Of a DNA stretch of 64,000 nt, positions 4,361 through 20,791 are shown one piece after another. The translations under genes were made by a program, and so were the position numbers. The stretch is from Saccharicrinis carchari (GTDB lineage: Bacteria > Bacteroidota > Bacteroidia > Bacteroidales > Marinilabiliaceae), in assembly GCF_900182605.1 (NCBI RefSeq), contig NZ_FXTB01000001.1, forward strand, positions 744,001 through 808,000. The letters run 5' to 3'. The notes below the pieces were generated by a model. The model was not told the DNA's origin, did not search any database, and saw only the letters and a list, made by a program, of their open reading frames with translations. Positions within the stretch are counted from its first letter, which is position 1. Every line of letters begins with the position of its first letter.

Positions 4361-4927
4361 TACAATATTTTATCCTATATTTGATGAAAGTGCGCATTGT
4401 AAATCTACACAAAAAAACCCGATATCCCCTGCCTGTTAATAAACAAGTACTTCATATTTTGAGTAATACAAAAAATATTAATGCAACCCACAATGTGCCT
4501 TTTAAAGCATTCACTGTTAATAAGGCTTCTACTTAACCAGATACTTTGTATTTATAGATAAAATTAAGTGCGATACTAAAGCAATAAGGTACCAAAGCCC
4601 AATGGAGTATACGGCTGACGGTCTTTTTACCATCATTGCGCCTCGCACAACACCGCACGTAAGGGTAGTTAGCTTGGTCCTCTGCTACAAATACTCCACC
4701 GGAATATTCATTGGAGTATATACGGTAGTTCCCTGCACCAGGGAGAATTGAAACCTGATATATATCAATAGATTATTAAAATTTAAACTAGCTAAGATCA
4801 ACACGTGGTCCTAAAACATTGCATGCATAGTTGTGCTTTGAACGAAATAACATTTAATCAACTGCTTTAATATTATCCATATTAAAGTATCTTCGTAAGC
4901 ACTCATGTTTAAAAAGATACATTGATT
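4361..4927. other. intergenic region with possible mobile-element relic
   Basis: About 570 bases between divergent genes hold no convincing ORF. Positions 4603-4614 (TGGAGTATACGG) and 4712-4725 (TGGAGTATATACGG) form an imperfect direct repeat around a more GC-rich block. The rest is AT-rich and presumably carries the promoters of both neighbours. Confidence 0.45.
4560..4740 (-). mobile_element. possible remnant of a group II intron 3' end
   Basis: On the minus strand, positions 4664 down to 4639 read TACGTGCGGTGTTGTGCGAG followed by GCGC. From memory, this resembles the conserved end found after many bacterial group II intron reverse transcriptase genes. No reverse transcriptase ORF or complete domain V fold is present, so at most this is a decayed tail. 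It could also be unrelated intergenic sequence. Confidence is low. Confidence 0.22.
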
Positions 4928-6517
4928 ATGAAAAATTATATTATAGTATTTATTGGTCTGTTTTTGTTTCAAAACATATTATCTCAGCATAAAAAAATTC
5001 ATGGTTATGTTTATTGGGACGAGAATATAAATGCCGTTTTCGACGAGGGGGAGAAACCCATTCCCAACGTGGCTATTTCCAATGGACGGGATGTGGTGTT
5101 GACGAACCATAAAGGAAGGTACAGTTTGAAAATTAGCAATGGCGAAACCGTGTTTTTAATAAAACCAGCAGGCTACATCGCCAAACTTTCGGAAGACAAT
5201 GTGCCGTTAAACTACGCTTTCAACAAGCCAGAAGGCTCACCCGACTTCTTCTTTCCGGGCATTGAACCGCAAACAATAGAAAAGCCTTTAAATTTTCCAC
5301 TTTATAAGAATGAAGGTGAAAACAACTTGAAAATTGCACTTTTAGGAGATATCCAACCCAAAACAATCGATGAAGTGTATTATATGAGTAAAGTGGTTTC
5401 GGAGAAAATGCTTGGCGAGGACTATGATTTTATCGTACCCCTGGGAGATATTAGCTATGATAACCTGCGTTTGTTCGATCCCATAAAAATAGTGCTGGGC
5501 AAAATTGGTGCACCGGTTTATTACGTGTACGGTAACCACGATAGAAACTACGATGCAAAGGAATTGAAATATCGGGATGAGACTTACAAATCACATTTTG
5601 GCCCGTCGTATTATGCCTTCACCTACGGAATGCATAGCTTTATAACGCTCAATAACGTTTTCCCAAAACCGCACCATCGTTACAAGGCCTTTATTGATGA
5701 AGATCAAATGCAGTTTGTAAAGGAATTATTAAAGACAATACCAAGCGAGAACCATGTCCATTTACTCATGCATATTCCTTTGGAGCAACTCATTAACATA
5801 AAGGAATTTTCGGCATTATTTAAAAAGCACCCCATGGTATCGGCCTATGCCGGGCACACGCATATTCAATTTTTTGAAACGATTGGCGAAAAAGAAGGAT
5901 GGATAACCAACGACCCGGTAGAAGAGTTGGTTGCCGGGGCAGTTTCGGGTTCCTTTTGGCATGGCGAAAAAGATATGTTCGGCATTCCCGGGGCTATGAT
6001 GGCGGATGGAACGCCGAGAGGTTTTTGGATAATGAATTTGCAGGGGAACAAAAAAAATTATGATTATATAGTTTCCGAACCGGATATGCGGCAAATGCAC
6101 ATTTGGACCCCTTTCCATCACGAAAGGGAGCTGGTGACGGTAGACAGCGATAGTATTTTTGTGAACATTTATGCCGGCAATAAAGACACAAAGGTAGAAG
6201 TAAAAATAGGCAAGGGAGAATGGCAGACAATGAATTATACCGAAGATTTTGACCCCTACTTTTTACGTTTAAATATACTTCAGCAAAAGGGAATAACACC
6301 TACCGAAAATAGCATTAAACTAGGGAAGCCAAGAAAAAGCATGCATCTTTGGTCGTATCCCATCCCGGACAATTTACCCCAGGGAATACACATCGTTTCG
6401 GTGCGGGCCAGCAACCAATACGGCTTGGATGCATGGTCAAATACGATGCTTTTTAATACCGATAATACCCCGTATTTTAGAAGCAAAAAATTAAAAACAG
6501 AACGACTAATTAATTAA
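4928..6517 (+). CDS. secreted calcineurin-like phosphoesterase (MetallophosN-Metallophos-MetallophosC type)
   Basis: A two-metal phosphoesterase exported across the inner membrane. Residues 1-19 form a signal peptide. Residues 22-100 are a beta-sandwich N-terminal domain. The catalytic fold carries GD at 140-141, GD at 173-174, GNHD at 202-205, a metal-binding H282 and GHTH at 309-312. The first motif is D-x-Q rather than D-x-H. A C-terminal beta domain covers about 365-510. At 529 residues it is full length for this Bacteroidota family. The ATG at 4928 is preferred to an in-frame TTG at 4922 because it starts the signal peptide directly. The substrate is unknown. Its position beside a PUL with two more phosphoesterase domains suggests phosphate release from a glycan or lipid product. 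Confidence 0.85.
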   Translation: MKNYIIVFIGLFLFQNILSQHKKIHGYVYWDENINAVFDEGEKPIPNVAISNGRDVVLTNHKGRYSLKISNGETVFLIKPAGYIAKLSEDNVPLNYAFNKPEGSPDFFFPGIEPQTIEKPLNFPLYKNEGENNLKIALLGDIQPKTIDEVYYMSKVVSEKMLGEDYDFIVPLGDISYDNLRLFDPIKIVLGKIGAPVYYVYGNHDRNYDAKELKYRDETYKSHFGPSYYAFTYGMHSFITLNNVFPKPHHRYKAFIDEDQMQFVKELLKTIPSENHVHLLMHIPLEQLINIKEFSALFKKHPMVSAYAGHTHIQFFETIGEKEGWITNDPVEELVAGAVSGSFWHGEKDMFGIPGAMMADGTPRGFWIMNLQGNKKNYDYIVSEPDMRQMHIWTPFHHERELVTVDSDSIFVNIYAGNKDTKVEVKIGKGEWQTMNYTEDFDPYFLRLNILQQKGITPTENSIKLGKPRKSMHLWSYPIPDNLPQGIHIVSVRASNQYGLDAWSNTMLFNTDNTPYFRSKKLKTERLIN

Positions 6518-6608: not shown

Positions 6609-7501
6609 ATGAAAAACTTCAAAGCAGGTCGATATATAAATCAAGGAACTTTTAAAAGTTTTCAACCCGAAAAAATAAATAAACAATGGGTTCTTGAAAA
6701 TATGGAATTAGTCAATCTTCTGAGTCAGGCAGATAGGCAACTTGGAAAATTAGATATGTATTCTGAATATATACCCAATATTGATCTATTCATCAGTATG
6801 CATATTGCAAAAGAAGCAACAAAATCTAGCAAAATTGAAGGGACAAAAACCAATATTGAAGAGGTCTTGCTTGATAAGGATGATGTTAACGAAGAAAAAA
6901 GAAATGATTGGGAAGAAGTTCAGAATTATATATCTGCATTAAATTCAGCAATTGAGAATCTGAAAAAATTGCTTTAATTCATTATCAATTTGAAACAATA
7001 CATCCTTTCTTGGACGGAAATGGTAGAGTTGGCCGACTGATTATAACATTATATTTAGTTGAAAAAGGAATACTTAAAAAACCAATATTATACCTTTCTG
7101 ATTTCTTTGAAAGAAACAGGACTTTGTATTATGATAACTTAATGCGGGTTAGAGAAAAAAATGACATCACTCAATGGTTTAAATTCTTTTTAGTTGGGGT
7201 GATTGAGACAGCCAAAAATAGTATTGAAACATTTGATGGTATCTTAAAGTTACAGAAGGAAATTGAAATAAAGATACAAAGTTTAGGAAGCCGTTCGAGC
7301 AACGCAATGACAATAATCAATCATTTGTTTCATAAGCCAATAATAGATGCACAATTAACTAAGCTAATAACAAAACTATCTCTTCCATCTGTTTATAAAT
7401 TAATTAACGAATTGGAAGAATTAAAAATTTTGGAAGAGATTACAGGTGGTAAACGAGGAAAGCTGTTTGCATTTAAGGAGTATCTTGACCTATTTAAATA
7501 A
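6609..7501 (+). pseudogene. Fic-family AMP-transferase, broken by internal deletion and frame change
   Basis: Two pieces of one Fic gene are present. The first (6609-6977, 122 aa) carries the N-terminal domain with the inhibitory-helix motif SSKIEG at residues 73-78. The second frame resumes at about 6968 and reads ALIHYQFETIHPFLDGNGRV, which is the catalytic HPFxxGNGR core. It ends with a winged-helix-like tail (ORF 7010-7501). About 75 residues normally lie between them, including the flap with the PGEFR and QNWIGG segments; these are missing and the reading frame shifts. The string AAAATTGC at the junction could be deletion microhomology. Intact relatives transfer AMP from ATP to target proteins. 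This copy can hardly be active. It is more AT-rich than its neighbours, which suggests recent transfer. Confidence 0.85.
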
Positions 7502-7756: not shown

Positions 7757-10700
7757 CTACTCCCTAACAACAAACGATGCCTTTAACTTTGCCTGTGAAT
7801 CGCCACCGATAAAAACCCTAAAGTCGCCCGGTTCCACTTCCCATTTTTTATTGATGGTATAAAACCGGAGCATGTCGGCATTTATGGTAAGGCTTAGGGT
7901 CTTGGTTTCACCTGCCCGTATCATTACCTTTTCAAAGCCTTTTAACTCCCTTATGGGTCGTGTTATACTGCCCACCATATCTCTGATGTACAGTTGAACC
8001 ACTTCCTCGCCATCCACGGAGCCCGTGTTTGTAACATCAACGGATACGCTTATTTGACCATCTTTGGCTATTTCGGTCTTATCCAATCTCAAATTTTCAT
8101 ACGCAAAAGTAGTATAACTGAGTCCATGGCCAAAAGGATATAAGGCAGTTTTTGGTGCATCGGTATAACCCGAATAGGTAATGTGCTTTTTACTATAGGG
8201 CCTTCCGGTATTTTTTTTATTGTAATACAAAGGCTCCTGTCCCACATTATGTGGAAAGGAAACGGGTAGCTTGCCCGAGGGGTTGTAATCGCCAAACACA
8301 ACATCGGCTATCGCATTGCCCGACTCGGAGCCTAAAAACCAACACTCCAGGATGGAAGGCACATGCTCCGCCGCCCAGGAAATATCCATGGGTCTGCCGT
8401 TCATTAAAACAATTACTACGTTTTTGTTTACTTCGAGCACAGCTTCGAGTAATTGCTGCTGCACACCAAACAGTCCAATATCGGTTTGGCTTCGCCCCTC
8501 TCCTGTTTGATAGGCATCTTCGCCTATAGCCAGCAATACCACTTCGGCTTTTTTTGCCGCTTGAACAGCAGCATTTATTCCGGATACATCCGTAGTGTTG
8601 AATTTTAGCGGATGCAAAAATTGATTTTGTCCTTCCCTTAAAGTAGGCACCGTTAAATCTGCACCTTTTTCGTAATATATTGTTGTGCTGCTGCCAACCG
8701 CTTTTTTAACACCATCCAACAAAGAAACTGCGGAATTATACCTACCCTTAGCTCTCCAGTTTCCCAGCGGGGTATCTTTGTCATTGGCCAGGGGGCCAAT
8801 CACCGCTATACTTTTTAGGTTTTTATTGAGCGGAAGTAAGTCGTTTTCATTTTTCAACAGAACGATTGACTTTTTTGCCGCATCGCGGGCAATAGCCAAA
8901 TGCTCTTTGCTATAAACTTCGTTCTTTTCTCTGTCTTCGTTGCAATACCTATACGGATCATCGAACAAACCCAATCTGAATTTCACCCGCAACACCCGCC
9001 TCACGGCATGGTCCAAATGTGCCATCGAAATTTTATTTTCGTTTAATAAAGCCTCAAGATGTGCCTCATAGGCATAAGATTCCATATCCATGTCGCTGCC
9101 TGCGCTCAGGGCAATTTGGGCGGCATGTTTTTTATCTTTGGCATATCCATGCGCAATCATCTCCCCTATCGATCCCCAGTCCGAAACCACAAATCCATCC
9201 CAGCCCCAAGAACCCTTAAGCAAATCTCTTTGTAAAGCTTTGCTCCCTGTTGCCGGCACGCCATCAATTTCGTTAAATGCATTCATAAAAGTAGCCACTC
9301 CGGCTTCTGCAGCTGCCTTAAACGGGGGCAAGATAACATTATGCAACTCGTGCTCACCAATATTTACGGTGTTATAATCGCGGCCTGCTTCGGCAAAACC
9401 GTAACCGGCAAAATGTTTGGCACATGCCGCAAGAGTGTGGGGCAGCGACAGATCATCGCCCTGAAAGCCTTTTATCCGGGCAAGTCCTATTACGGTATTT
9501 AAGTAGGTATCTTCGCCGGCCCCTTCCATACCTCTGCCCCAACGGGCATCCCTCGACACATCGATCATGGGTGCAAAGGTCCATTGCAGACCGGAAGCCG
9601 ATGCTTCTTTTGCCGCTATGGAAGCCGATTGTTCCATAATATTCAAATCCCAACTGGCACTTTCGCCCAGGGGTATAGGAAAAATGGTTTTATATCCGTG
9701 TATCACATCATAGCCAAAAATCAAAGGGATTTTTAAGCGCGAATTTTCCATCACAATTTTCTGTGTTTCGCGAACAGATGCCACAGAAGTAATATTGAGC
9801 ATGGAACCTACTTCTCCGTTCTTAAGTTTATCAAGCTTATGCTGATCGCCTTTGGAGGACGACGGGCCGGTTGCATCCCACTTTCCGCTGTATTGCACCA
9901 GTTGCCCGATTTTTTCGTTGAGATGCATCAGGGCCAAAACGGAATCGACCTTGTGCTCTAAGGCCGGGTCAAAATCAGTTCCCTGGTGCAAATTATCCCT
10001 GTTATCTGTATTTTGATCAAAACCATAAATTTCTGCGTAAACAGGAAAGTGATCGGATGGATACCTTAAGTTTTCAGAATCGCTCAACACCGCATATTTT
10101 TTTACTTTTAAACCATTATTTTGGGAGATGAAAATATAATCAATGGTCCGTGTTACAGGCGCATTAAATTTAAAAGCATTGAACGTACCTTTGGGACCAT
10201 GGGTTAATTCGGCCACCGTTTCCGTATTCAGCATTTGCTCCGATAGCTTTTCGATTAGTAGGTTATTGGGTTCCACATTAAAATCGCCCGTTAAAATTAC
10301 CGGATAACCATGGCTGTTGATTTCGGCTATTTTTTGTTGGATGAGCTTCATTCCTTGTAGCCTGGCCTCCTGCCCCACATGATCCAGGTGCGTATTGAAA
10401 ACCCATATTTTTTGGGAGGTTTTTACATCCGTGAACAAGCCATAGGTACAAATCCGCGGATATGCGGCATCCCATCCCTTCGAAAATTTTTCGGGCGTTT
10501 CCGATAGCCAGAATGTACCGTCTTCCTCCAACCTAAATTTTGCTTTTTTGTAAAATATAGCCGAATACTCGCCCTTGTTGCCGCCATCGCGCCCGTGACC
10601 TATATAGTCATACCCCTTCAGTGTTTCTTTCATATCTGCAATTTGATTGGGGCGTCCTTCTTGCGTCCCCAAAAAATCAGGCGCATGGAATTGTATCTGG

Positions 10701-10852
10701 GAAAGTAAAAAATCTTTCCTATTGGACCAGGCATTTTCGCCATCCGAAGCTATGTCTAAACGTATGTTATAGGTCATAACGGAAACATCCTGTGACCTGG
10801 CCGTGGTAAAAAATAGACATGCGAGTACAAAAAGTATTAGTGTATTTTTCAT
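7757..10852 (-). CDS. secreted fusion: endonuclease/exonuclease/phosphatase domain + GH3 beta-glucosidase
   Basis: One uninterrupted 1031-residue frame joins two enzymes. Residues 1-20 are a signal peptide. Residues 22-276 are an EEP-fold phosphodiesterase or phosphatase with MTYNIR (26-31), Q64-E65, NTHLDH (153-158), GDFN (189-192) and SDHFP (266-270). After a 15-residue linker, residues 293-1031 form a complete BglX-like GH3 enzyme: KHFAGYG (479-485), nucleophile D558 in VSDWG, probable acid/base E785 in TGEGRS, and a C-terminal fibronectin-III-like domain (about 930-1025). Family knowledge: GH3 removes glucose from non-reducing ends of beta-glucans, and EEP enzymes cleave phosphoesters. 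It lies downstream of the GDPD-GH16 gene on the same strand. The fusion suggests that one substrate carries both bonds, perhaps in the periplasm. Confidence 0.9.
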   Translation of the reverse strand: MKNTLILFVLACLFFTTARSQDVSVMTYNIRLDIASDGENAWSNRKDFLLSQIQFHAPDFLGTQEGRPNQIADMKETLKGYDYIGHGRDGGNKGEYSAIFYKKAKFRLEEDGTFWLSETPEKFSKGWDAAYPRICTYGLFTDVKTSQKIWVFNTHLDHVGQEARLQGMKLIQQKIAEINSHGYPVILTGDFNVEPNNLLIEKLSEQMLNTETVAELTHGPKGTFNAFKFNAPVTRTIDYIFISQNNGLKVKKYAVLSDSENLRYPSDHFPVYAEIYGFDQNTDNRDNLHQGTDFDPALEHKVDSVLALMHLNEKIGQLVQYSGKWDATGPSSSKGDQHKLDKLKNGEVGSMLNITSVASVRETQKIVMENSRLKIPLIFGYDVIHGYKTIFPIPLGESASWDLNIMEQSASIAAKEASASGLQWTFAPMIDVSRDARWGRGMEGAGEDTYLNTVIGLARIKGFQGDDLSLPHTLAACAKHFAGYGFAEAGRDYNTVNIGEHELHNVILPPFKAAAEAGVATFMNAFNEIDGVPATGSKALQRDLLKGSWGWDGFVVSDWGSIGEMIAHGYAKDKKHAAQIALSAGSDMDMESYAYEAHLEALLNENKISMAHLDHAVRRVLRVKFRLGLFDDPYRYCNEDREKNEVYSKEHLAIARDAAKKSIVLLKNENDLLPLNKNLKSIAVIGPLANDKDTPLGNWRAKGRYNSAVSLLDGVKKAVGSSTTIYYEKGADLTVPTLREGQNQFLHPLKFNTTDVSGINAAVQAAKKAEVVLLAIGEDAYQTGEGRSQTDIGLFGVQQQLLEAVLEVNKNVVIVLMNGRPMDISWAAEHVPSILECWFLGSESGNAIADVVFGDYNPSGKLPVSFPHNVGQEPLYYNKKNTGRPYSKKHITYSGYTDAPKTALYPFGHGLSYTTFAYENLRLDKTEIAKDGQISVSVDVTNTGSVDGEEVVQLYIRDMVGSITRPIRELKGFEKVMIRAGETKTLSLTINADMLRFYTINKKWEVEPGDFRVFIGGDSQAKLKASFVVRE

Positions 10853-11306
10853 CTCATTATAATTATTGATTTATGTGGTCCCGATGCATCGGGAGAACTG
10901 GCCGATAATGTTTTCCCTCCCGCTTGTGCGGGACGGGTTTCCGCTACAGCGGAACAAGTAATGTGAGAGGCTACTCTCATAACCTGTCCCGATCTTTCAT
11001 CGGGAGCCTGATCCGACCATTCGGGGGCTCGCTTCATTTTGTTGAATATATATATTAAGACTACGGGATAAGAGACAGTAGATATGGAACCATACGACAC
11101 CCCGCAGCATTGTGAGAAGAAACTTCAAAAAAAGAAACTATGAACACAACTTGTTCTGCTTATGCGGAATATACGCAGAGCACAGCGTTTTAATTTTCAA
11201 CCAAATGTACACAAAGGCGCACAATGTTCACAATATTTCTTAGTGGCCGTTGTGCATCCATCGTATTCTCTGTGGTTGCTTTATAAAGCACTGTGTTGAA
11301 TTAGTT
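10853..11306. other. intergenic region with hairpin-rich repeat
   Basis: About 450 bases between the two fusion genes contain a block of short palindromes (10880-11032, listed separately). A stretch after it shares no visible features. The only ORF here, on the minus strand across 10849-11100, has no coding character and overlaps the repeat. The gap is long enough that EEP-GH3 may have its own promoter. Confidence 0.5.
10880..11032. repeat. palindrome-rich dispersed repeat, copy A
   Basis: It contains CCCGATGCATCGGG (10880-10893), CCCGCTTGTGCGGG, and CCCGAT...ATCGGG (10988-11004). The core AATGTGAGAGGCTAC, followed by TCATAACCTGTCCCGA, recurs in diverged form at 26431-26500. The arrangement resembles REP or small non-autonomous repeat elements. 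Confidence 0.55.
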
Positions 11307-12893
11307 TCAAAAATCATTTTCTTTTTGAAATACCCGTACATAATCCACCAACATTTGCTGCGGAAAAACACTGTTGTCGATTCCCTTTTTGCCGCCGAGC
11401 ATGCCACCTACCGCTGTGTTTATAATCAGGTAAAACTTTTGATCAAAAGGCCATTCTGCGGTGGTTTTATTTTCGTTTAGTATCTGGTTGTAAACGATGC
11501 CGTTCAGTAAAAAGTCCATTTTTTCGGGTGTCCATTCCAAGGCAAACACATTGAAGGTATCATAAGGGCGGTCGATAAAAATCTTTTTTCCTTTGTGCGT
11601 TCCTTTCATGTGATTGTAGGCTTTGGTATGGATGGTGGCAAATACAGAATCCGGATTAAAGCCCACATGTTCCATAATATCTATCTCGCCACACTCGGGC
11701 CATCCCACTTCCTTTCGGTTGTCGCCCAGCATCCAAATGGCAGGCCAAAGCCCCACACCCCTGGGCAACTTTGCCCTTACCTCTATGCGCCCGTATTTCC
11801 ACGAAGCCAAATTTTTAGTATTCACCCGACCCGAGGTGTAAGCAGCTGTTTTTCTTTCGGCAGCATATTTCATCCAGCTTTTCTTTAAAAGATCCGGATT
11901 GCCATAGTCTTTATTCGCGATTTCTTCTTTGTGTGTTTCAATAATCAAATGGCCACCCTGTACCCGAACATTTTTCAGGCTATCGGTGTAATACTGATCT
12001 TCGCGGTTGGCTATAAAGCCATAAGCATATCCCCACTTGGTACTGTCGGGTTTGCCCCTGTAGTTAAACTCATCGCTCCAAACCAATTTATACCCATCCT
12101 TTACAGGGCTTGCTGCAATACGGGTAAACAACAGTTCAGGCTCGTCGGTGGTGATGTAATCAAAATCGTTGGCCAGCAACCAATCCATATCGTCGGGTTT
12201 ATTTACGGTCCAGGCATTTAGACTTAAACCCAAGTCTTTGGCGCTTTTAATCCATTCCGGATTTCTTTTGAAAATATTAAAATGATAGTCCAGGCCCCAA
12301 ATTCCGTCCTCCTTTAACTGTTGCGGTGTTTTGTTACCGTTCAGATACTGTGTTTTGGCTGTAGCGTCTATCTCAACAATTTTTTTAAGTATATCATACC
12401 CAAAGCTGATATATGAATGAATATAGGGTTCGGCCTTTAGCTCTTTAACCAACTGGATTGTTTTTTCGGCCATTTTCAGATTCAGCTCTTTATTTCTTGT
12501 GGGCTTAATTTCGCAAACCAATCCGGTACCCTTGTTATTTTCCATCCCGGCAAGCAAATAATCCTTTAAGGTGGGTAACAACTCGCCATTGGCAAGCTTA
12601 TGTTTTGCCAGCTCCTGATATGTAGTTTCCACTATCAATAAATCGTGGTAATCTTTATCGTGGGTTACAATCAACACACTATCTGCCGTAATCCTTACAT
12701 CAAACTCAGCCCCCGTGCAATTTAGCTCAATAGCATGTTTTAATGAGGCTATAGAGTTTTGAGGAAGCTTATATTTTTTCCAGGCACCACGATGCGCCAC
12801 AACAGGATTATTGGCAAAAGTACGGTTGTTTTGAGTTGTAGGTGTGCATGAAATAAATCCTGTAATCATTAATATTAGAAATAGATATCGCAT
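11307..12893 (-). CDS. lipoprotein fusion: glycerophosphodiester phosphodiesterase + GH16 beta-glucanase
   Basis: A 528-residue protein with a lipobox ending at C16 (GFISC), so it is likely membrane-anchored. Residues 30-258 are a GDPD-type TIM barrel: HRGAW at 34-38, E63 and D65 in GAEFDV as metal ligands, THD at 77-79 with general-acid H78, and CEIK at 127-130. Residues 265-525 are a GH16 jelly roll with catalytic ExDxxE at 403-408 (EIDIME, nucleophile E403, acid/base E408), as in laminarinases. GDPD enzymes release alcohols from glycerophosphodiesters; GH16 enzymes of this type cut beta-1,3 or mixed beta-glucans. It follows susD on the same strand after 118 bases, so it probably belongs to the same operon. 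Both active sites look intact. Confidence 0.9.
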   Translation of the reverse strand: MRYLFLILMITGFISCTPTTQNNRTFANNPVVAHRGAWKKYKLPQNSIASLKHAIELNCTGAEFDVRITADSVLIVTHDKDYHDLLIVETTYQELAKHKLANGELLPTLKDYLLAGMENNKGTGLVCEIKPTRNKELNLKMAEKTIQLVKELKAEPYIHSYISFGYDILKKIVEIDATAKTQYLNGNKTPQQLKEDGIWGLDYHFNIFKRNPEWIKSAKDLGLSLNAWTVNKPDDMDWLLANDFDYITTDEPELLFTRIAASPVKDGYKLVWSDEFNYRGKPDSTKWGYAYGFIANREDQYYTDSLKNVRVQGGHLIIETHKEEIANKDYGNPDLLKKSWMKYAAERKTAAYTSGRVNTKNLASWKYGRIEVRAKLPRGVGLWPAIWMLGDNRKEVGWPECGEIDIMEHVGFNPDSVFATIHTKAYNHMKGTHKGKKIFIDRPYDTFNVFALEWTPEKMDFLLNGIVYNQILNENKTTAEWPFDQKFYLIINTAVGGMLGGKKGIDNSVFPQQMLVDYVRVFQKENDF

Positions 12894-13011
12894 AATTATT
12901 TGTATTGAGGCTCATTGTTTAACAATATACAAGGACAATAAATTGCCCTTGTATACTTAAATGCTGCTATGACTTTTAATATTACCAATTTTTTAACAAT
13001 ACGACAAATCA

Positions 13012-14643
13012 TTAGTAACCATTATTCTGAGGATAATCGGGTCCTAGTAAATCCAGATCTTCCTGAAAAATCGGAAAGTTAATAAAATGATCTTGCCAGT
13101 TCTCTCTCGGGTCTTTTATACCCCCATAATTAGCGGGGAAATAAGGGCCATCACCAGCATAATTCTTCATTTGCCTGTTCATCACCGTTGCTCCCATCCG
13201 CTTTAGGGTAAACCAGCGCTGTCCTTCAAAAGCTAACTCCCGGGCTCGCTCATCCAAAATGGCTTGCTCGTCCACATTGCTTAAAACAGCCGCACCTGCC
13301 CGTTCTCGAATGGCATTGATATAGGGCAAAGGATCACCGTTGCCCGATCTCATAATAGCCTCTGCTGCAATCAAATAAGTTTCAGCTAAACGATACACTA
13401 AAATATTGCTCCTTTGTTGGTATGAGTTCGGATCGTCATCTTCTTGCGCAAATTTTAAACATGATGGATGCAAGTTTTGATAATATTTTTTATAGGTTTT
13501 ACTGGGATTATCCAGATCGGTGATAGGCTCATAAATATCAATGATATCGCCTACCTTTTTACCTTCGGGTAAATTATCCACATCATTGTAATAATACTTT
13601 AATCTAAAATATGTATTGTCATCTCTTGTATCATTTTCATCCTCTGCCAAAAGGTTTAATAAATACAGATTGGGTAATATTCTCGAAAAACCTTTTCCTC
13701 CTTGAGATACATCGCCTTCAATTCCTTTTATGTGAAAATACTGTGTGATGTAGTTGGCATTCAGCATACTTGTATTTCCACCTCCCAATACATTGTCTTT
13801 TGCTTGTACTACAAACAATTGCTCCGCATGGTTTCTTTCTCCTTTAAAAACATCAGCTGTGTTTGGCAGTAAACCATGTGGACTATCGGGATCTTCGATG
13901 ACGGACAAGGCTTGCGTTTTGGCTTCTAACCAATCCCCCTCCCACAGGGCCAATTGTGCCTTAACATGTTTGGCGGTTCCCTTTGAAACACGGCCAAAGG
14001 TTACATCCCAATTTAAATGTTCAATGGCAAAATCCAAATCACTATTTATCAAGGCCAATATTTCTTCATCCGAAGATTTATCCAGTATCAAATCGAAAGC
14101 ATTGTCAACAGTAACCGATTCGGTACTTACATAGATGTTATTATACATCCGGTACAGATAAAAATAAGCTTCTGCCCTAAAGAATTTTGCTTCTGCAATA
14201 ATTTGATTCTTTGTTGCTTGGTCAATACCATTTGCCACTTCGGCAGCATTGATTATATCGGTGGCTTTACTGGATATTTTATAATAGTGTTTCCAGAACA
14301 AAGAAGAGATAAAATTTGAGCCCAGATCGATAGGCGATACTCCACGTTGATACCTGCCAATCAAACCTAAATATCCGGAACGGTTAAAGGCCAAATCGCT
14401 TCGCGACGGCAATATCAGACCGCCCATATAATCCTGTATATTGGTATCATATCTATCGCGGTTAAATTTATATAAACTGACCACGCCCGATTTTAATCCT
14501 TCCTCAGTAGTATATACATAATCCGAATCGATTAATGTACTTGGCTGCTCTGCCAAAAAATCGTCGCATGATGCCGCTAACAACAGAACCATACAAGCCA
14601 GCAGGCCGCCTATTGTCTTTTTATAATAATATTTTATATTCAT
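13012..14643 (-). CDS. SusD/RagB-family glycan-binding outer-membrane lipoprotein
   Basis: The 543-residue lipoprotein has a signal peptide ending in AASC (C26) followed by DD. Its TPR-rich helical body is typical of SusD, including YLYRMYNN-type helices, the FRAEAYFYLYR segment near 155, and late features such as YRLAETYLIAAEAIMRSG and ERARELAFEGQRWFTLKRMG. SusD forms a lid over the SusC transporter and captures oligosaccharides on the cell surface. Its start lies 18 bases after the susC stop, so the two are cotranscribed. The neighbouring GH16 and GH3 domains suggest a beta-glucan ligand, but nothing in the sequence itself fixes specificity. Confidence 0.93.
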   Translation of the reverse strand: MNIKYYYKKTIGGLLACMVLLLAASCDDFLAEQPSTLIDSDYVYTTEEGLKSGVVSLYKFNRDRYDTNIQDYMGGLILPSRSDLAFNRSGYLGLIGRYQRGVSPIDLGSNFISSLFWKHYYKISSKATDIINAAEVANGIDQATKNQIIAEAKFFRAEAYFYLYRMYNNIYVSTESVTVDNAFDLILDKSSDEEILALINSDLDFAIEHLNWDVTFGRVSKGTAKHVKAQLALWEGDWLEAKTQALSVIEDPDSPHGLLPNTADVFKGERNHAEQLFVVQAKDNVLGGGNTSMLNANYITQYFHIKGIEGDVSQGGKGFSRILPNLYLLNLLAEDENDTRDDNTYFRLKYYYNDVDNLPEGKKVGDIIDIYEPITDLDNPSKTYKKYYQNLHPSCLKFAQEDDDPNSYQQRSNILVYRLAETYLIAAEAIMRSGNGDPLPYINAIRERAGAAVLSNVDEQAILDERARELAFEGQRWFTLKRMGATVMNRQMKNYAGDGPYFPANYGGIKDPRENWQDHFINFPIFQEDLDLLGPDYPQNNGY

Positions 14644-14661
14644 CGCATTTATATTTTAAAA

Positions 14662-17600
14662 TTACAAATTAACTTTTACACCAAACGTAAAACTTCTTGC
14701 ATCCGGATAACCCGTATCTGCATTAGAATAGGTGCTCCTGATATTTACTTCCGGGCTATATCCAATATAATCGGTACTGGTAAATAAATTTGTACCGGTT
14801 ACATAAAACTTAACCATATCGATATTAACCCTGTTTAAAATTGATTTTGGTAAGGTGTAACCTAAACTTAGTGTACGGAGCCTAATATAAGAGGCATCTT
14901 TAATGGCCAAGGAATTTAAGTACTGCGGAGCAGAATCAAAATTTGGCCTTGGGAATGTTGTGGACGGATTTTCAGGTGTGTAGTAAGGTACTTTTACCCC
15001 GTTTAATTTGCCCTGAAGGGTACCTCCGTTATTATAGGCGGATAAAAATGGATTTACTTTGGTAGCACCTTCAACTACATAGAAATCAACGAACAAATCA
15101 AAGCCTAAATACGACAGATTTGTGGAAAAAGAACCAAACCAATCCGGATTGGGATCAATAAATACCCTGTCGTCCTGCGTTATCATACCATCCTTGTTGG
15201 TATCTTTGATTTTAATATCACCAGGTCGGAGGTCGGCTTGGGTAATGGTTGATTCAGGATTGGCTTGTGGTGCATTGGCAAAGTCTTCACCTTCTTGCCA
15301 AATACCATCAAACTGATACTGCCTGATAACACCAATGGGCTGACCAACGTAATAGTTATAGGCATCGTCTTCAAGAATTGCATTCCCGCTACCGTCGTTA
15401 TAAAGGTCGATCAACTTATTTTTGTTGTTTGACCAGTTGGTGGAAACAGACCATTTAAATTTATGTGTATTGATAATGTTTGCCGTCAGGTTTAACTCGA
15501 TACCCTTGTTTTGCAACTCGCCCGCATTAAAGTAGGTGTATTTGTAACCTGTTATTGAGGGCACACCCCTTCTCAACAATAAATCTTTCGTGCGCGAATC
15601 GTAGTATTCAATATTACCTGCCAGCAGGTTGCCAAAAGCAGCAAAATCAAGACCAATGTTAAGGGTGGTTATCGTTTCGTGCTTTAAATTTACATTGGGC
15701 AAAACCACCGATGGCGAGTAGCCCGAAGCCGATTCGCCATCGAACATATAGTTTTGACCATCAGCTGTAAAAAGTGAGGTGTAAGGTAACTTAAGTGCAT
15801 TTGCCAGCGCACCGTAGCTCACCCTTAACTTCAACTCCCTTACGGCATCTACATATTGCAGAAAAGGTTCGTTATGCAATTTCCAGGCGAAAGCTGCGGC
15901 TGGGTTATAAGTCCATTTATTATCCTCAGAGTTAACTGACGAACCATCTCCCCTTAGGGTGGCCGTAAGCAGATATTTATCCATTAAATTATAACGCGCT
16001 CTGCCCATGTAGGAGGCTGTGCGTATTTTGGTTTTATAACGCTCCACTGTAACATTGCCTATGGCGTTAGTAATACCATCGTAGCCTAAACTTTCATTGA
16101 TAAAGCCGCGCCCCTCCGTAAAGGTTTTGGTATATTTATTCTCGTCAACTGCCTGTACCAATGTTAAGTTAAAGAGGTTATTTTCGTCGAACCTTTTATT
16201 GTAGGTCAAGATATTCTCAACCAGGAAGGCCTCCCTTAATTGATTATCGATGCGGGCAATTCCTTTGTCCGTATTCCCGGCCGAGCTCAATGAAGATTGA
16301 TATTGTCCCCTTTCCGAATTTTTTCGTGTCATGGAACCCTTAAACTGATAGGTTAAATCTTTTGTGATTTGCCATTTGGGTAAAACATTAATTACAAAAT
16401 CATTACCTTTTGTATCGTTATCCGATTCCCTCAAATTCCATAATGGACTTGTGGCCGACAGCTCTTCGCCACTTGGGTATCTTGTTATAGAACCATCTTC
16501 ATGATATGCACTACCCAACGGCGAAACGGTTATAACATTTACATTGGCCGCTCTTTCGGTATCATCGTTGAGCAAATTGACGTCAAAGGCAACCGAAAAC
16601 TTATCATTAATCTCTTGATCGACATTCAGCCTTAGGTTTTTACGTGTATAGCTCGAGGTGGGTATAATTCCATCTTCCCTAAAGTAGTTTAAACTTCCAT
16701 ATATTTTTGTACGCTCAGTTCCGCCGGCAACACTAATTGACTGGCTGTGTACCGTTCCGTTTCTCATCAGCTCGTCTTCCCAATCCACAAATTTATTGTT
16801 GGCAATATTTTCCAGTTCCCCCACCGAAAAAACATCCACATCATCTGAATAGCTGTCGTCCGCATTTGTTGCACGAACCGCCTCCCTTTTTAGCTGGGCG
16901 AACTCCTGTCCACTATAAACATCAAAATTCTTTTCTATTGACTTTGTGGTTATGTATCCGTGGTAGGATACACTCACCTTGTCCTTTTTACCCCTTTTAG
17001 TGGTAATCAGTACAACACCGTTAACCGCTCTTGATCCATAAATAGCCTGTGCCGAAGCATCTTTGAGGAATTCTACCGATTCAATGTCGTCCGGGTTAAT
17101 ATCCTCAATGCCTCCATCCCTAACTACACCATCAACCACATAAATACCGCTTACATTACCTTCTATAGAACCTCTACCCCTGAATAAAATCTCCGATGAT
17201 CCCCCGGGTCGCAGGGTTCCCCCGCCTACATCCACCTTTAATCCCGATATTCTACCTCTTAACATTTCATTTACATCCGACGTAGGTGTTACGGTAGCTT
17301 TACCAAGATCGGCTTTTGCAACGGCGCTTACCAAATCGCTTTTCTTTTGGGTACCATAACCCACTACAACCACCTCTTCTAATACATCGGTATCCGGCTG
17401 TAAACTAACCCTTATATTATCTGTAATGGCCACTTCTAAATTTTGATAACCAATAAAAGACACGCGTAAAGTAGTTGCGTCCGACTTAACATTTAACGAA
17501 AACTTACCGTCTAAGTTGGTGGATGTACCATTAAGGGTACCCTTTACCACAACGGATGCACCAGGTAAGGGGGTTCCAGTTTCATCTAATACAGTTCCTT

Positions 17601-17700
17601 TTACAGTTTTTTGTACTTGAGCCGAAATAACAACCGTTGTCAAAAAAAACAATAGTGTAAATAGGATCCTAAAATTTTGTTTCACTAGCTTTTGTTTCAT
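14662..17700 (-). CDS. SusC/RagA-family TonB-dependent transporter
   Basis: A 1012-residue outer-membrane transporter that imports glycan fragments using TonB energy. Residues 1-27 form a signal peptide. Residues 30-110 are a carboxypeptidase-like regulatory domain (KGTVLDETGTPLPGASVVVK). VVVVGYGTQKKSDLVSA marks the start of the plug, followed by IYGSRAVNGVVLITTK at the plug end. A long beta-barrel ends in aromatic and hydrophobic strands (FTFGVKVNL). Length and order match the SusC family exactly. It is first in the minus-strand series susC, susD, GDPD-GH16, EEP-GH3. The three 11-bp repeats about 250 bases upstream are the likely control site. Confidence 0.95.
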   Translation of the reverse strand: MKQKLVKQNFRILFTLLFFLTTVVISAQVQKTVKGTVLDETGTPLPGASVVVKGTLNGTSTNLDGKFSLNVKSDATTLRVSFIGYQNLEVAITDNIRVSLQPDTDVLEEVVVVGYGTQKKSDLVSAVAKADLGKATVTPTSDVNEMLRGRISGLKVDVGGGTLRPGGSSEILFRGRGSIEGNVSGIYVVDGVVRDGGIEDINPDDIESVEFLKDASAQAIYGSRAVNGVVLITTKRGKKDKVSVSYHGYITTKSIEKNFDVYSGQEFAQLKREAVRATNADDSYSDDVDVFSVGELENIANNKFVDWEDELMRNGTVHSQSISVAGGTERTKIYGSLNYFREDGIIPTSSYTRKNLRLNVDQEINDKFSVAFDVNLLNDDTERAANVNVITVSPLGSAYHEDGSITRYPSGEELSATSPLWNLRESDNDTKGNDFVINVLPKWQITKDLTYQFKGSMTRKNSERGQYQSSLSSAGNTDKGIARIDNQLREAFLVENILTYNKRFDENNLFNLTLVQAVDENKYTKTFTEGRGFINESLGYDGITNAIGNVTVERYKTKIRTASYMGRARYNLMDKYLLTATLRGDGSSVNSEDNKWTYNPAAAFAWKLHNEPFLQYVDAVRELKLRVSYGALANALKLPYTSLFTADGQNYMFDGESASGYSPSVVLPNVNLKHETITTLNIGLDFAAFGNLLAGNIEYYDSRTKDLLLRRGVPSITGYKYTYFNAGELQNKGIELNLTANIINTHKFKWSVSTNWSNNKNKLIDLYNDGSGNAILEDDAYNYYVGQPIGVIRQYQFDGIWQEGEDFANAPQANPESTITQADLRPGDIKIKDTNKDGMITQDDRVFIDPNPDWFGSFSTNLSYLGFDLFVDFYVVEGATKVNPFLSAYNNGGTLQGKLNGVKVPYYTPENPSTTFPRPNFDSAPQYLNSLAIKDASYIRLRTLSLGYTLPKSILNRVNIDMVKFYVTGTNLFTSTDYIGYSPEVNIRSTYSNADTGYPDARSFTFGVKVNL

Positions 17701-18010
17701 ATCATGTTATTTAAATTTAGTTTAAAAAGCACGCGCCATTATAGCATTGCAAATACTATAAATTTTTTACACTTATAAACTTACATCCTGCACATGATAA
17801 TTCCATATTTTATACCCCGACAAAAATCGAACAAATTATTGTAAAGACTAATAAGGGTGCATAAAAACAATTAAACATCTATATATCAGCGTATTTAAAT
17901 TTGAATTAATTTACTTATGAATAACAAAAAAAGTTAATTTGCTATCGTTGTAGTAGTATTGTAGTGGTATTGTTGTGGTAGATTTAATTAAAAATCCTTT
18001 AGCTGTGTTA
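17701..18010. other. susC upstream region
   Basis: This 310-base region separates the regulator's stop from the susC start and holds the susC promoter. It is AT-rich and contains the 11-bp tandem repeat at 17948-17980. I see no terminator hairpin for the regulator gene. Confidence 0.5.
17948..17981 (-). promoter_or_regulatory. three tandem 11-bp repeats, candidate operator of the PUL regulator
   Basis: On the plus strand the units are TTGTAGTAGTA, TTGTAGTGGTA and TTGTTGTGGTA. Read toward susC, the first unit gives CTACCACAACAATA. A spacing of 11 bp places the repeats on one face of the helix, as expected for cooperative binding. The matching motif CTACCACCACAATA lies upstream of the glycan-binding gene at 21065-21078, in the same orientation relative to that gene. 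This is a candidate binding site for the LuxR-type regulator encoded between them. Confidence 0.5.
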
Positions 18011-20791
18011 TCAAAAACTTAAGATATAATCGATAAGACCCATATCGTGTTGTAAATCCAGTTTTTTCCTTAACCTGTAACGCTTGGTCTCCACACTTTT
18101 TACCGAAATATTGAGTAAGGGAGCCATTTCTTTTGATGATAAATTAAGCCGCATATAAGCACAAAAACGTAAGTCATTAGAGTTTAAGTCGGGGTGCGCC
18201 AGCTTCATCTTATTTAAAAAATCCTGATTGGCATTATTAAATGCTTGTTCAAAAAACGACCAATCATCATCGTCATTTAAATTGCTATCTATCAATTTTA
18301 GTGTGGATTTGTTATCACGATGGTTAGTTTTCTTAAGTTCCTTTTTAATACTGTTCAACACTTCGTTTTTTTTAATAATACTCATTGTTGATATAGCCAG
18401 TTGTTTATTTTTACTTTCAATGTCTTGGCTTAACTTTTCGTTTTTAAGGTTTACAATCAATTGTTCACTTTCCAGCTGTTTGCGCTCGCTCTGCTTTTTA
18501 TAATGTTTTTTATACGCTCTATGCATTAGGGTTAAAAGAAAAAACAGTACCGCCAGATATAGCATGATGGCTGTATTTGATAGTAGCAAAGGCTTATTTA
18601 TTATAAAATTGTAGTTTATCGTATTGCTCGACAGGCGGTTTCCAACTTTCGCCCGAATATTTAAGCTGTAATCACCAAATGGCAAATTATCGAACGTGAG
18701 TTCAGATTTATCGTCCCATTCGCTCCATTGATTATATCGCCCATCGAGTTTATACTGAAACTGCACCACGCTATATTTATCGTAATTAGGAACACTAAAA
18801 CGAAACCGAATTGAATTATTTGCGTACTTAAAATTACCCGGATTCTCAATATCAACAAGTTTGTTACTTTCCCCAACAAGGCTCAACTCAATGGCATTTA
18901 ATACGATAGGCTCATTGCTGTTATTATTTGTTCGCGAAATATCTATGGTAAGGTAACCATCCGTTATTCCAATGAGATAATTACTTTGCTTAATTGGCGC
19001 AATATTTTCATAACCTACTTGCCCCTTACGTAATTGATAAGGCAATGCAATCCTATGTGTTAGTAACTGGTTTGTTAAATCATTTACATCAACATAGCTA
19101 ATGTTGTCATCCGAAAAAGCCCAAAGCTTTTGCGTTTCATCAACAACTAATTTACCCGATACATACTCCGATTGTGTAACTAAAGGGCTAAGAACAGTGT
19201 CTTTTTTAAAGCTGTTTTTTGTTGTATCATAGGCCAATACCCCATCTTTGGAGGCATAAATAATTCTATTTTTAAACTTTGCCAAACTTGAGTTTTTGTC
19301 GATCGGCGCTATGGAATCGAGCATTACCTCTTTTACCTCTGTAAAATCTTCGTTTATGGTAAGCCTAAAAACACCTTTATAGGCATGACTCACCCATACC
19401 TCATTATTTTTTACAAGTTCAAAATATCTGGCAGAGTTATTAAACCCCTGAATTTTGTTACGGAGTTTCCAATTTCCGTTTTCTTTATGTAATACATTTA
19501 AGCCGTTATAGTTGCCTTCAAGCAGCATATTCTCCTTACCCAACAAGGATTTAAAAAGCCAAGTTCCTGGCGTACTACTCACTAAAATTGCTTTATTGTC
19601 GGTATTAATTAAATAAGTACCGGCATGATGGCCACAAAAAAGTTCATTATTGTATTTAAATAAAGTCCATACTTGTCCGGCCGTACCGTCCATAAATGTT
19701 AATTCTTCGTTATGCGAAACTCTTTTGTAAAACAAGCCCTGATTGGTTCCCAAATACAAAAAATCGTTATAAACAATGGAGGCATAAACGGTCCCTATCT
19801 TGCCCTCATCATCATTAAAAACTCGTATTGGCGATTTTAAATTAATACAATTGATTCCATTATCGAGGCCAGCCCATAAATTATTGTCCACATCTTCGTA
19901 AAGGCACAACACTGTATTATTACCAAGTCCGCAACTTCTGTCTATTTGGTATTCTAAACGCCCGTTTTTACTTAAAATAATTACTCCGTTTTTAATGGTT
20001 CCAATCACAAAGCTTTTATCCTTGAGCTGGATGCTACTAAAAATATTCATGTCTTGCAGCATTTCTTCGGCAGGGATTTTCCATTTGATAAATTTATCGT
20101 TAATTAGCTTGTAAAAACCATGTACCTTTGTGTGGATAAGTAATCCCTCCGGAATAGAATATACATTTATCACTTTGTCGTTTTTGACAATAGAATTGCT
20201 TATAAATAATTTTGACTCCCCTGCTTCAATTTTATAAATACCTTCGTTATTAACGTGGTAATATATAACACTATTGACATTGAAAACTTTTGAGACCGGG
20301 TTTTTGGGTTTTACAATTAATTGATCTCCACTAATTGGATTATAAAAATAAATTCGATCAAAAGATTGGAATAGTATCCATTCATCATAGGTTGCAATAT
20401 TCCATATGTGCTCATCTTCAACCATGGCCTCATTAAACTTTGATACTAAGCTTTGATACAATAGTTTGCCAAATTCGTTTCTCTCCCAATAGCCAAACTC
20501 CATATAGCATCCGGTATATATTTTGTTGTTCACCGCTTTTACTGCCCTTATAATTGTATTATTTGGCGAGGGATACATAGTCCATTTGGCACCATTATAC
20601 TCCAATAGTCCTTCATTGTTGGCTACGTAAATAAATTTATCGGGTGCTTGCGAAATCTTCCAATTTTGATTCTCACCATCATAATCCATTGGGGTAAATC
20701 GTTGTATGGGTGGCAGTTCCTGCCCGAATATAGTATTATTTCCAAGCCATAAAGAGATACAAAATAGGATAATATAAAATTTTCTATTCAT
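18011..20791 (-). CDS. membrane-spanning PUL regulator: propeller sensor, Y_Y_Y domain, LuxR-type HTH
   Basis: This 926-residue one-component regulator probably senses a glucan fragment in the periplasm and activates the PUL. It begins with a signal peptide (1-23). A long beta-propeller sensor of repeated two-component-propeller-like blades follows (for example SSLAKFKNRIIYASKDGVLAY), then a Y_Y_Y domain (YKLDGRYNQWSEWD region). One membrane helix lies at about 738-757, then a coiled coil at about 763-825. The C-terminal HTH at about 865-926 contains SSKEMAPLLNISVKSVETKR. There is no histidine kinase or receiver domain, so the signal must pass directly to the HTH, as proposed for SusR-like proteins. 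It sits between the two transcription units it probably controls. Confidence 0.88.
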   Translation of the reverse strand: MNRKFYIILFCISLWLGNNTIFGQELPPIQRFTPMDYDGENQNWKISQAPDKFIYVANNEGLLEYNGAKWTMYPSPNNTIIRAVKAVNNKIYTGCYMEFGYWERNEFGKLLYQSLVSKFNEAMVEDEHIWNIATYDEWILFQSFDRIYFYNPISGDQLIVKPKNPVSKVFNVNSVIYYHVNNEGIYKIEAGESKLFISNSIVKNDKVINVYSIPEGLLIHTKVHGFYKLINDKFIKWKIPAEEMLQDMNIFSSIQLKDKSFVIGTIKNGVIILSKNGRLEYQIDRSCGLGNNTVLCLYEDVDNNLWAGLDNGINCINLKSPIRVFNDDEGKIGTVYASIVYNDFLYLGTNQGLFYKRVSHNEELTFMDGTAGQVWTLFKYNNELFCGHHAGTYLINTDNKAILVSSTPGTWLFKSLLGKENMLLEGNYNGLNVLHKENGNWKLRNKIQGFNNSARYFELVKNNEVWVSHAYKGVFRLTINEDFTEVKEVMLDSIAPIDKNSSLAKFKNRIIYASKDGVLAYDTTKNSFKKDTVLSPLVTQSEYVSGKLVVDETQKLWAFSDDNISYVDVNDLTNQLLTHRIALPYQLRKGQVGYENIAPIKQSNYLIGITDGYLTIDISRTNNNSNEPIVLNAIELSLVGESNKLVDIENPGNFKYANNSIRFRFSVPNYDKYSVVQFQYKLDGRYNQWSEWDDKSELTFDNLPFGDYSLNIRAKVGNRLSSNTINYNFIINKPLLLSNTAIMLYLAVLFFLLTLMHRAYKKHYKKQSERKQLESEQLIVNLKNEKLSQDIESKNKQLAISTMSIIKKNEVLNSIKKELKKTNHRDNKSTLKLIDSNLNDDDDWSFFEQAFNNANQDFLNKMKLAHPDLNSNDLRFCAYMRLNLSSKEMAPLLNISVKSVETKRYRLRKKLDLQHDMGLIDYILSF

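Follow-up and report, generated by a model that had tools for sequence, protein, structure and literature searches.

Among the closest known relatives of the system considered here is a multidomain β-1,3(4)-glucanase whose structures are deposited as 7WW4 and 7WWC, the latter titled as a laminaritriose complex. This enzyme joins a GDPD domain to a GH16 domain, and the same architecture is found in a protein encoded by Saccharicrinis carchari within a stretch of 64,000 nucleotides (contig NZ_FXTB01000001.1, positions 744,001 to 808,000), which is hereafter called the window. The corresponding gene resides in a polysaccharide utilization locus (PUL) and is adjacent to a gene for a second fusion, in which an EEP domain is joined to a GH3 domain. 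A sequence-only reading of this DNA had proposed that the locus is dedicated to β-glucans decorated with phosphodiesters. Our analysis leads to an evenly balanced judgment that it is a Sus-type PUL whose target is a β-1,3-glucan with phosphate-ester substituents, of which glycerophosphoryl (phosphoglycerol) groups are the most likely kind. It is likely that some phosphate ester belongs to the same substrate as the glucan, and the choice of phosphoglycerol as the substituent is the weaker step.

According to the accessible portion of one source (PMC12448869), 7WWC is a Pedobacter terrae glucanase (A0A1G7XNR7) without an accompanying publication. The same source is inconsistent on this matter: another passage assigns 7WWC to a xylanase, with Tandrup et al. 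2025 given as the reference for the glucanase. The EEP half of the second fusion resembles the mannosyl-6-phosphatase Bt3783 from Bacteroides thetaiotaomicron (4C1R; 3MPR), with which it shares 41% identity. Bt3783 belongs to a yeast mannan PUL, whereas the EEP domain in the window is fused to GH3 inside a β-glucan PUL.

Laminarin PULs of North Sea Flavobacteriia have been described as variants A through D (PMC6298971), with which the window PUL shares SusC/D and GH16, as well as GH3 in the case of variant A. As presented in the accessible portion of that source, two GH16 genes frame GH3 in variant A, variant B adds GH30 and GH17, and variants C and D comprise GH5, GH16, and GH30. With one GH16 and one GH3 accompanied by GDPD and EEP, the window PUL fits none of these variants. 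The words phosphodiesterase, phosphatase, glycerol, GDPD, and endonuclease do not occur in the main text of this source, a scope that excludes its supplements, and the first three are likewise absent from the accessible text of a second report on a marine laminarin PUL (PMC6246565). A GDPD gene has been noted in the region of a PUL called fucoidan-specific, beside GH65, GH97, and GH13 genes, in the available part of another paper (PMC9131120). Among the papers listed in our literature searches, which covered main-text passages, none was found to describe a GDPD or EEP in a β-glucan PUL.

Domains and catalytic residues of the two fusions

The region from 7757 to 20791 combines SusC/SusD, GH16, GH3, and a Y_Y_Y regulator in one direction, and thus has the composition of a Sus-type PUL. 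As the sequence-only reading had described, the EEP-GH3 and GDPD-GH16 genes are adjacent and stand beside SusC/D, and each is an open reading frame in which Pfam recovers the expected domains (Table 1). In the GDPD-GH16 protein, GDPD (PF03009) is matched at residues 34-253 (9.6e-25; 88.5 bits vs a cut-off of 23.6) and GH16 (PF00722) at residues 347-500 (6.1e-20). The structures 7WW4/7WWC are the best solved matches both by sequence (E 3.7e-141, with whole-protein coverage) and for an AlphaFold model of the protein (pLDDT 79; 46% identity; TM 0.83/0.91), and the next-best solved matches of the GH16 half are laminarinases. With a fold nearest to β-1,3-glucanases and an ExDxxE motif, this half is predicted to act as a laminarinase-type glucanase. 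A KRE6/SKN1 Pfam match was taken as general GH16 homology. The GDPD half, which carries PF03009 along with the HR, ExD, H, and ExK residues, fits a GDPD phosphodiesterase and is predicted to be hydrolytic.

In the second fusion, EEP (PF03372) is matched at residues 26-268 (5.9e-16), and GH3 N (3.8e-68), GH3 C (5.6e-60), and Fn3-like (2e-24) matches extend across residues 311-1019. The GH3 part also passes the NCBIfam BglX equivalog NF011678 (775.8 bits vs a cut-off of 666). The best solved matches of the EEP model (pLDDT 87) are the two Bt3783 structures (TMq 0.89). Because Bt3783, the nearest solved relative for which an activity is named, is a mannosyl-6-phosphatase, EEP is probably a phosphomonoesterase rather than a phosphodiesterase, and we rejected its assignment as a second phosphodiesterase on the same grounds. 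Thus, the label of phosphodiesterase-type domains given to both fusions suits GDPD and probably not EEP. The proposal of a phosphodiester-decorated glucan is partly supported: what holds is a β-1,3-glucan-type PUL whose phosphoesterases are intact as far as their sequences show, one of them more likely a monoesterase.

The GDPD residues H34, R35, E63, D65, H78, E128, and K130, together with E403, D405, and E408 of GH16, are unvarying in 31 of 31 distinct fusions, including that of the window. Conservation of N29, E65, H155, D190, N192, D267, and H268 in EEP is at least 97% (39 sequences), and D558 and E785 of GH3 are present in 26 of 26 sequences. We take the catalytic roles of these residues to be those usual for their families. 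At this level the tested residues are in place, as had been claimed, and neither fusion contains a half that appears catalytically dead.

The lipobox-like start of GDPD-GH16, with Cys16 conserved in at least 90% of 15 aligned sequences, would place this protein at the outer membrane, whereas the ordinary signal peptide of EEP-GH3 would direct it to the periplasm. The expected arrangement, as in other Sus systems, is thus an endo-enzyme at the outer membrane and an exo-enzyme in the periplasm. The 454-bp spacer between the two fusions (10853-11306) contains small palindromes recognized by eye and no inverted repeat of at least 12.

Distribution and origin of the fusions

The GDPD-GH16 architecture is already known and conserved, and is not unique to the window. 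A pattern scan of a collection of species genomes, which detects close relatives only, yielded 30 loci; 16 of these match over nearly the whole protein, and 14 of the 16 come from genera of the Flavobacteriaceae. Full-length GDPD-GH16 was found in five of 296 genomes of the phylum (the window's own included), 13 of 397 Flavobacteriaceae, and two of 71 genomes of the window's family (E<=1e-60), the second being Saccharicrinis sp. LH_M88 (G051). These genome surveys scored the best few candidates per genome, namely five in the 296-genome draw and three in the samples of 397 and 388 Flavobacteriaceae. Pedobacter, the genus named for the 7WW4/7WWC glucanase, is a soil genus. One related sequence, from Mariniflexile fucanivorans (L039, 9947-11579), has GDPD and GH16 in two overlapping frames, an arrangement that could be a genuine split or could stem from a frameshift or an error in sequencing.

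Gene order was counted at 28 loci, which are 30 distinct loci minus G051 and G208 and do not include the window. Three duplicates (L005, L026, and L029) were dropped and L039 was not counted, and the set includes L031 (Saprospiraceae) and G228 (another family). EEP is present at all 28 loci, the regulator at 25, SusC at 24, SusD at 23, and a close GH3 at 18, followed by MIP (15), GlpK (13), GlpD (10), a sulfatase (9), and the metallophosphoesterase (1); the score thresholds are our own, a GlpK truncated at the end of a stretch (L030, L036) was left uncounted, and many stretches reach only ~10 kb per side, such that absences are not firm. The distance between EEP and GDPD-GH16 is at most 46 bp at 27 of these loci and 878 bp at the other. 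Furthermore, in a search of 15 fusion-bearing genomes, 10 contained a single EEP match at E<=1e-30. Of the two fusions noticed beside SusC/D, it is GDPD-GH16 that recurs in this setting, with EEP and GH3 encoded as separate genes at the other fusion loci.

Because of this separation, the EEP-GH3 fusion of the window is best viewed as a derived local event. The sole other match to both halves among the 296 genomes (E<=1e-280, two candidates per genome) is in G355, where a stop lies between the halves, and among the 71 family genomes no other match listed covers both halves; more diverged EEP-GH3 fusions could escape these searches. At four loci (G669, G494, G493, and L028), one stop is all that separates EEP from GH3 within a common frame, and fusion therefore needs little. 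The double fusion was rejected as a signature of the system since the window alone showed EEP and GH3 joined in an open frame. GDPD-GH16 itself has a deposited structure and recurs in Flavobacteriia.

In a tree of 31 fusions, the proteins of the window and G051 form a pair (100/99) that is nested among flavobacterial rows (81/92, 82/93). Given this nesting, whose support is moderate, and the 64-79% identity of SusC/SusD to their partners in most flavobacterial loci, the PUL was probably acquired by horizontal transfer from Flavobacteriia, apparently marine ones. More specifically, identity to the partner proteins at most fusion loci is 64-76% for SusD, falling to 39-44% in L039 and L055, and 68-79% for SusC (~45% in L039, L055, and G494, with just a partial match in G177, G688, G513, and G051). 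Regulator homologues at the 25 loci are 45-70% identical. Some flavobacterial fusion loci carry other SusC/D pairs, which qualifies the transfer reading.

Linkage to glycerol genes

Many relative PULs are flanked by glycerol genes, which encode a glycerol kinase (755 bits vs a cut-off of 590), a MIP channel (185 vs 171), and a GlpD-like dehydrogenase that scores below its cut-off (302 vs 360) but has a DAO_C domain. GlpD, GlpK, and MIP genes occur near eight of 12 flavobacterial fusions for which ~19 kb of flanking sequence was at hand, upstream of the PUL in seven cases and downstream in one, at distances of up to 9.1 kb for GlpK and 10.7 kb for GlpD. The 12 fusions span eight genera, and linkage is seen in six. 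This figure leaves out G410 (7.9-kb contig) and G537 (GH16 only 41%, no glp genes; 8 of 13 if included). GlpK-MIP also adjoins an unfused GDPD in G580 and G296. In all 10 genomes with linkage, comprising the eight and these two, the linked GlpK is the sole GlpK over the family cut-off.

As a control, GlpK exceeds the cut-off in 23 of 60 sampled Flavobacteriaceae, and omission of G177, G410, and G252 left 20 control loci. None of these 20 loci, all from fusion-negative genomes, has GDPD, GH16, EEP, or GH3 near GlpK, although some (L120, L123, L124, and L129 among them) are close to contig ends. Three have a distant SusC, one of these with SusD. Comparison of linkage with control gives a Fisher p of 4.7e-5, which is a rough figure uncorrected for kinship and from a partly circular control, as absence of the fusion was itself the criterion for picking the 20 genomes. 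By our arithmetic, chance would place a given gene in a 40-kb stretch of a 4-Mb genome about 1 time in 100. Phosphoglycerol was among several substituents put forward by the sequence-only reading, and the linked glycerol block specifically favors it, even though the genome that contains the window has no detected GlpK or GlpD.

Further phosphoesterases

The secreted calcineurin-like phosphoesterase that had been noticed near the fusions is indeed present (Table 1). Homologues lie beside a fusion-bearing locus of Cellulophaga baltica (L037, 66%) and beside a Galbibacter mesophilus locus with GH16 and EEP and no fused GDPD (L045, 64%). At a threshold of E<=1e-130, a sample of 388 Flavobacteriaceae contained no close relative of this metallophosphoesterase; that search had no positive control, but in a separate search the same query recovered the window's own copy. 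Among 15 fusion-bearing genomes, matches at E<=1e-60 occur in two besides that of the window, both at 35%, and no solved structure matches by sequence. Other loci carry different enzymes after GH3, such as another GDPD, 25-28% identical to that of the window, in L041 and L042, and PhoD directly after GH3 on the opposite strand in Formosa algae (L032). Recurrent and partly unrelated phosphoesterases are what a phosphate-bearing substrate would predict.

Proposed function and alternatives

We infer an order of steps in which the lipoprotein GDPD-GH16 would act at the cell surface, cutting the backbone and hydrolyzing a glycerophosphodiester on the same chain. Fragments would then be imported by SusC/SusD. 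In the periplasm, EEP would strip the residual phosphate monoester, either sugar-phosphate or glycerol-phosphate, thereby unblocking chain ends from which the attached GH3 would free glucose. The metallophosphoesterase would serve as an accessory phosphatase. In flavobacteria the glycerol would go to GlpF-GlpK-GlpD, and S. carchari, in which neither GlpK nor GlpD was detected, would gain only glucose and phosphate. In this account the domains, the residue conservation, the linkage of genes, and the nesting among flavobacterial rows are observed, whereas the activities and locations of the enzymes, the sequence of steps, and the nature of the substituent are deduced. We also propose, tentatively and with somewhat less than even confidence, that a widespread and undescribed glycerophosphoryl β-1,3-glucan exists in marine and saline settings. 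Flavobacteriia, and by transfer Saccharicrinis-like Bacteroidales, would possess a dedicated PUL that takes glucose, glycerol, and phosphate from it via a bifunctional phosphodiesterase-glucanase.

Several observations weigh against this proposal. We know of no phosphoglycerol-substituted β-1,3-glucan, and none appeared among the papers listed in our literature searches. No GlpK (E<=1e-100) and no GlpD (E<=1e-20) was detected in the window's genome or in G051, and in the latter the best EEP sits on a different contig from the fusion. Four of the 12 sampled fusions are without a linked glycerol block; GlpK is located elsewhere in G676 and G688, and none was found in G530 and G513. Two of the 20 controls (L119 and L121) have a GlpK of the PUL type (82-87%) with no such PUL enzymes nearby, and in G410 (L138, 212-13689) the same type of GlpK block stands beside GH36, two SASA esterases, PhoD, and GH3. 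Because the same type of block occurs in these settings, the glycerol block is associated with the GDPD-GH16 PUL and is not exclusive to it. EEP also occurs in other β-glucan-type PULs in which no GDPD like that of the window was seen (G355, a second G173 locus, L044, L045, and L050), of which the G355 PUL has GH5-CBM and two GH30 genes, with EEP and GH3 in one frame and one stop between them (L145 18599 to L146 1772). Finally, a type I sulfatase is present at nine of the 28 loci, which the proposal does not account for. The G410 block and its neighbors, of which GH36 is an alpha-galactosidase, perhaps form a locus for another glycan that bears glycerol.

The sulfatases, which retain a CSPSR motif in 12 of 12 sequences listed (two being the same gene), suggest either that a component of the substrate is sulfated or that the hydrolase is promiscuous. 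The representative in L027 (11209-12696) is of the formylglycine type, lies beside or inside the PUL, has homologues at eight other loci of the 28, and does not reach the cut-off of either the arylsulfatase or the choline-sulfatase models. In Algibacter amylolyticus (L028, 14827-15960, minus strand), an FGE-sulfatase-family protein directly follows GH3.

Much of the same evidence, to the disadvantage of our proposal, would be accounted for by a plain laminarin PUL combined with phosphorus scavenging, although we regard this as unlikely. The phosphoesterases would then act on separate molecules, glycerophosphodiesters and sugar phosphates that lysed algae release alongside laminarin, and the fusions would merely co-deliver the enzymes. 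GH16, GH3, and SusC/D are all parts of laminarin-type PULs, free glycerophosphodiesters would also account for the Glp block, and the sulfatase would be one further scavenging hydrolase. However, a single shared substrate is suggested by the fusion of GDPD to an endo-glucanase, by the presence of EEP at 28 of 28 counted loci, and by the window protein in which EEP is joined to an exo-glucosidase, and small phosphodiesters should need no SusC/D oligosaccharide importer.

It is quite improbable that the glucan instead bears another phosphate group, such as phosphocholine, phosphoethanolamine, or a plain 6-phosphate, or that the substrate is a teichoic-like polymer of glucosyl-glycerol-phosphate. 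There are precedents in the mycolaminarans of oomycetes, which carry 6-phosphate, and in the cyclic β-1,3/1,6-glucans of Bradyrhizobium, which carry phosphocholine. Consistent with such a group, EEP is nearest to a sugar-6-phosphatase, GlpK and GlpD were not detected in the window organism, and GDPD-fold enzymes accept several diesters. But this reading would not explain why a channel, a kinase, and a dehydrogenase for glycerol are linked to the PUL in many relatives. Osmoregulated periplasmic glucans have β-1,2/1,6 linkages and thus are not a substrate for a GH16 laminarinase. Some bacterial periplasmic glucans had been offered as an example of the target, and those with a β-1,2 backbone were set aside because of this misfit. 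Their likeness to the proposed substrate lies in phosphoglycerol on a glucan (OpgB; available part of PMC10514313).

That the GDPD and EEP halves are inactive as phosphoesterases and now function as binding or structural modules is highly improbable, for although the Glu of the usual PENT motif is replaced in 19 of 31 fusions (Q in 12 and K in 7, with E in the other 12), the seven GDPD catalytic residues do not vary and the EEP motif residues are conserved to the extent given above.

Neighboring features

In the minus-strand operon, the order is regulator, SusC, SusD, GDPD-GH16, and EEP-GH3, and the metallophosphoesterase gene on the plus strand faces this operon. Solved relatives of the window SusD are remote, with a best score of 75.7 bits. 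What looks like one interrupted protein at 21500-23562 has a Por tail as well as repeated domains that resemble glycan-binding ones, and its N-terminal piece is 31-42% like a gene located soon after SusC in L047, L048, L053, and G537. An apparently broken Fic-family gene lies on the plus strand in two pieces; the first (6609-6977) has a Fic_N match (1e-27), and the second (7010-7501) has DGNGR by eye and no Fic match in Pfam.

Table 1. Coordinates of the PUL and adjacent features within the window
Feature	Position	Strand	Basis and remarks
EEP-GH3 fusion	7757..10852	-	1031 aa, one frame; ordinary signal peptide by eye; predicted periplasmic
EEP domain of EEP-GH3	10028..10783	-	residues ~24-275; Bt3783-like phosphatase fold
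GH3 exo-β-glucosidase part of EEP-GH3 (predicted)	7772..9964	-	residues ~297-1027; without own signal peptide; D558/E785
GDPD-GH16 fusion	11307..12893	-	528 aa, one frame; lipobox-like Cys16
GDPD domain of GDPD-GH16	12123..12812	-	residues ~28-257
GH16 laminarinase-type domain of GDPD-GH16	11322..12104	-	residues ~264-524; ExDxxE E403/D405/E408
SusD-like protein	13012..14643	-	Pfam
SusC-like TonB-dependent transporter	14662..17700	-	Pfam; TIGR04056 790.6 bits vs cut-off 368.25
Y_Y_Y/propeller regulator	18011..20791	-	Pfam; weak LuxR-type C-terminal helix-turn-helix match
Secreted calcineurin-like phosphoesterase (MetallophosN/C)	4922..6517	+	PF16370, PF16371, PF00149; probable accessory
Glycan-binding-like protein secreted by the type IX secretion system, apparently interrupted	21500-22366 + 22444-23562	+	two pieces; membership uncertain

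Implications

The novelty of this system is its likely substrate and its link to glycerol, not the fusions themselves. Diatom chrysolaminarin is put at petagrams of carbon a year in the accessible text of a marine laminarin paper (PMC6298971). β-1,3-Glucan is among the largest marine carbon pools, and its bacterial breakdown is usually viewed as a carbon-only process. If our proposal is true, a conserved PUL that joins glucanases to phosphoesterases and to glycerol catabolism would indicate that a glucan containing phosphorus serves as a source of both carbon and phosphorus. The PUL would then also supply ready enzymes with which such a glucan could be found and proven.

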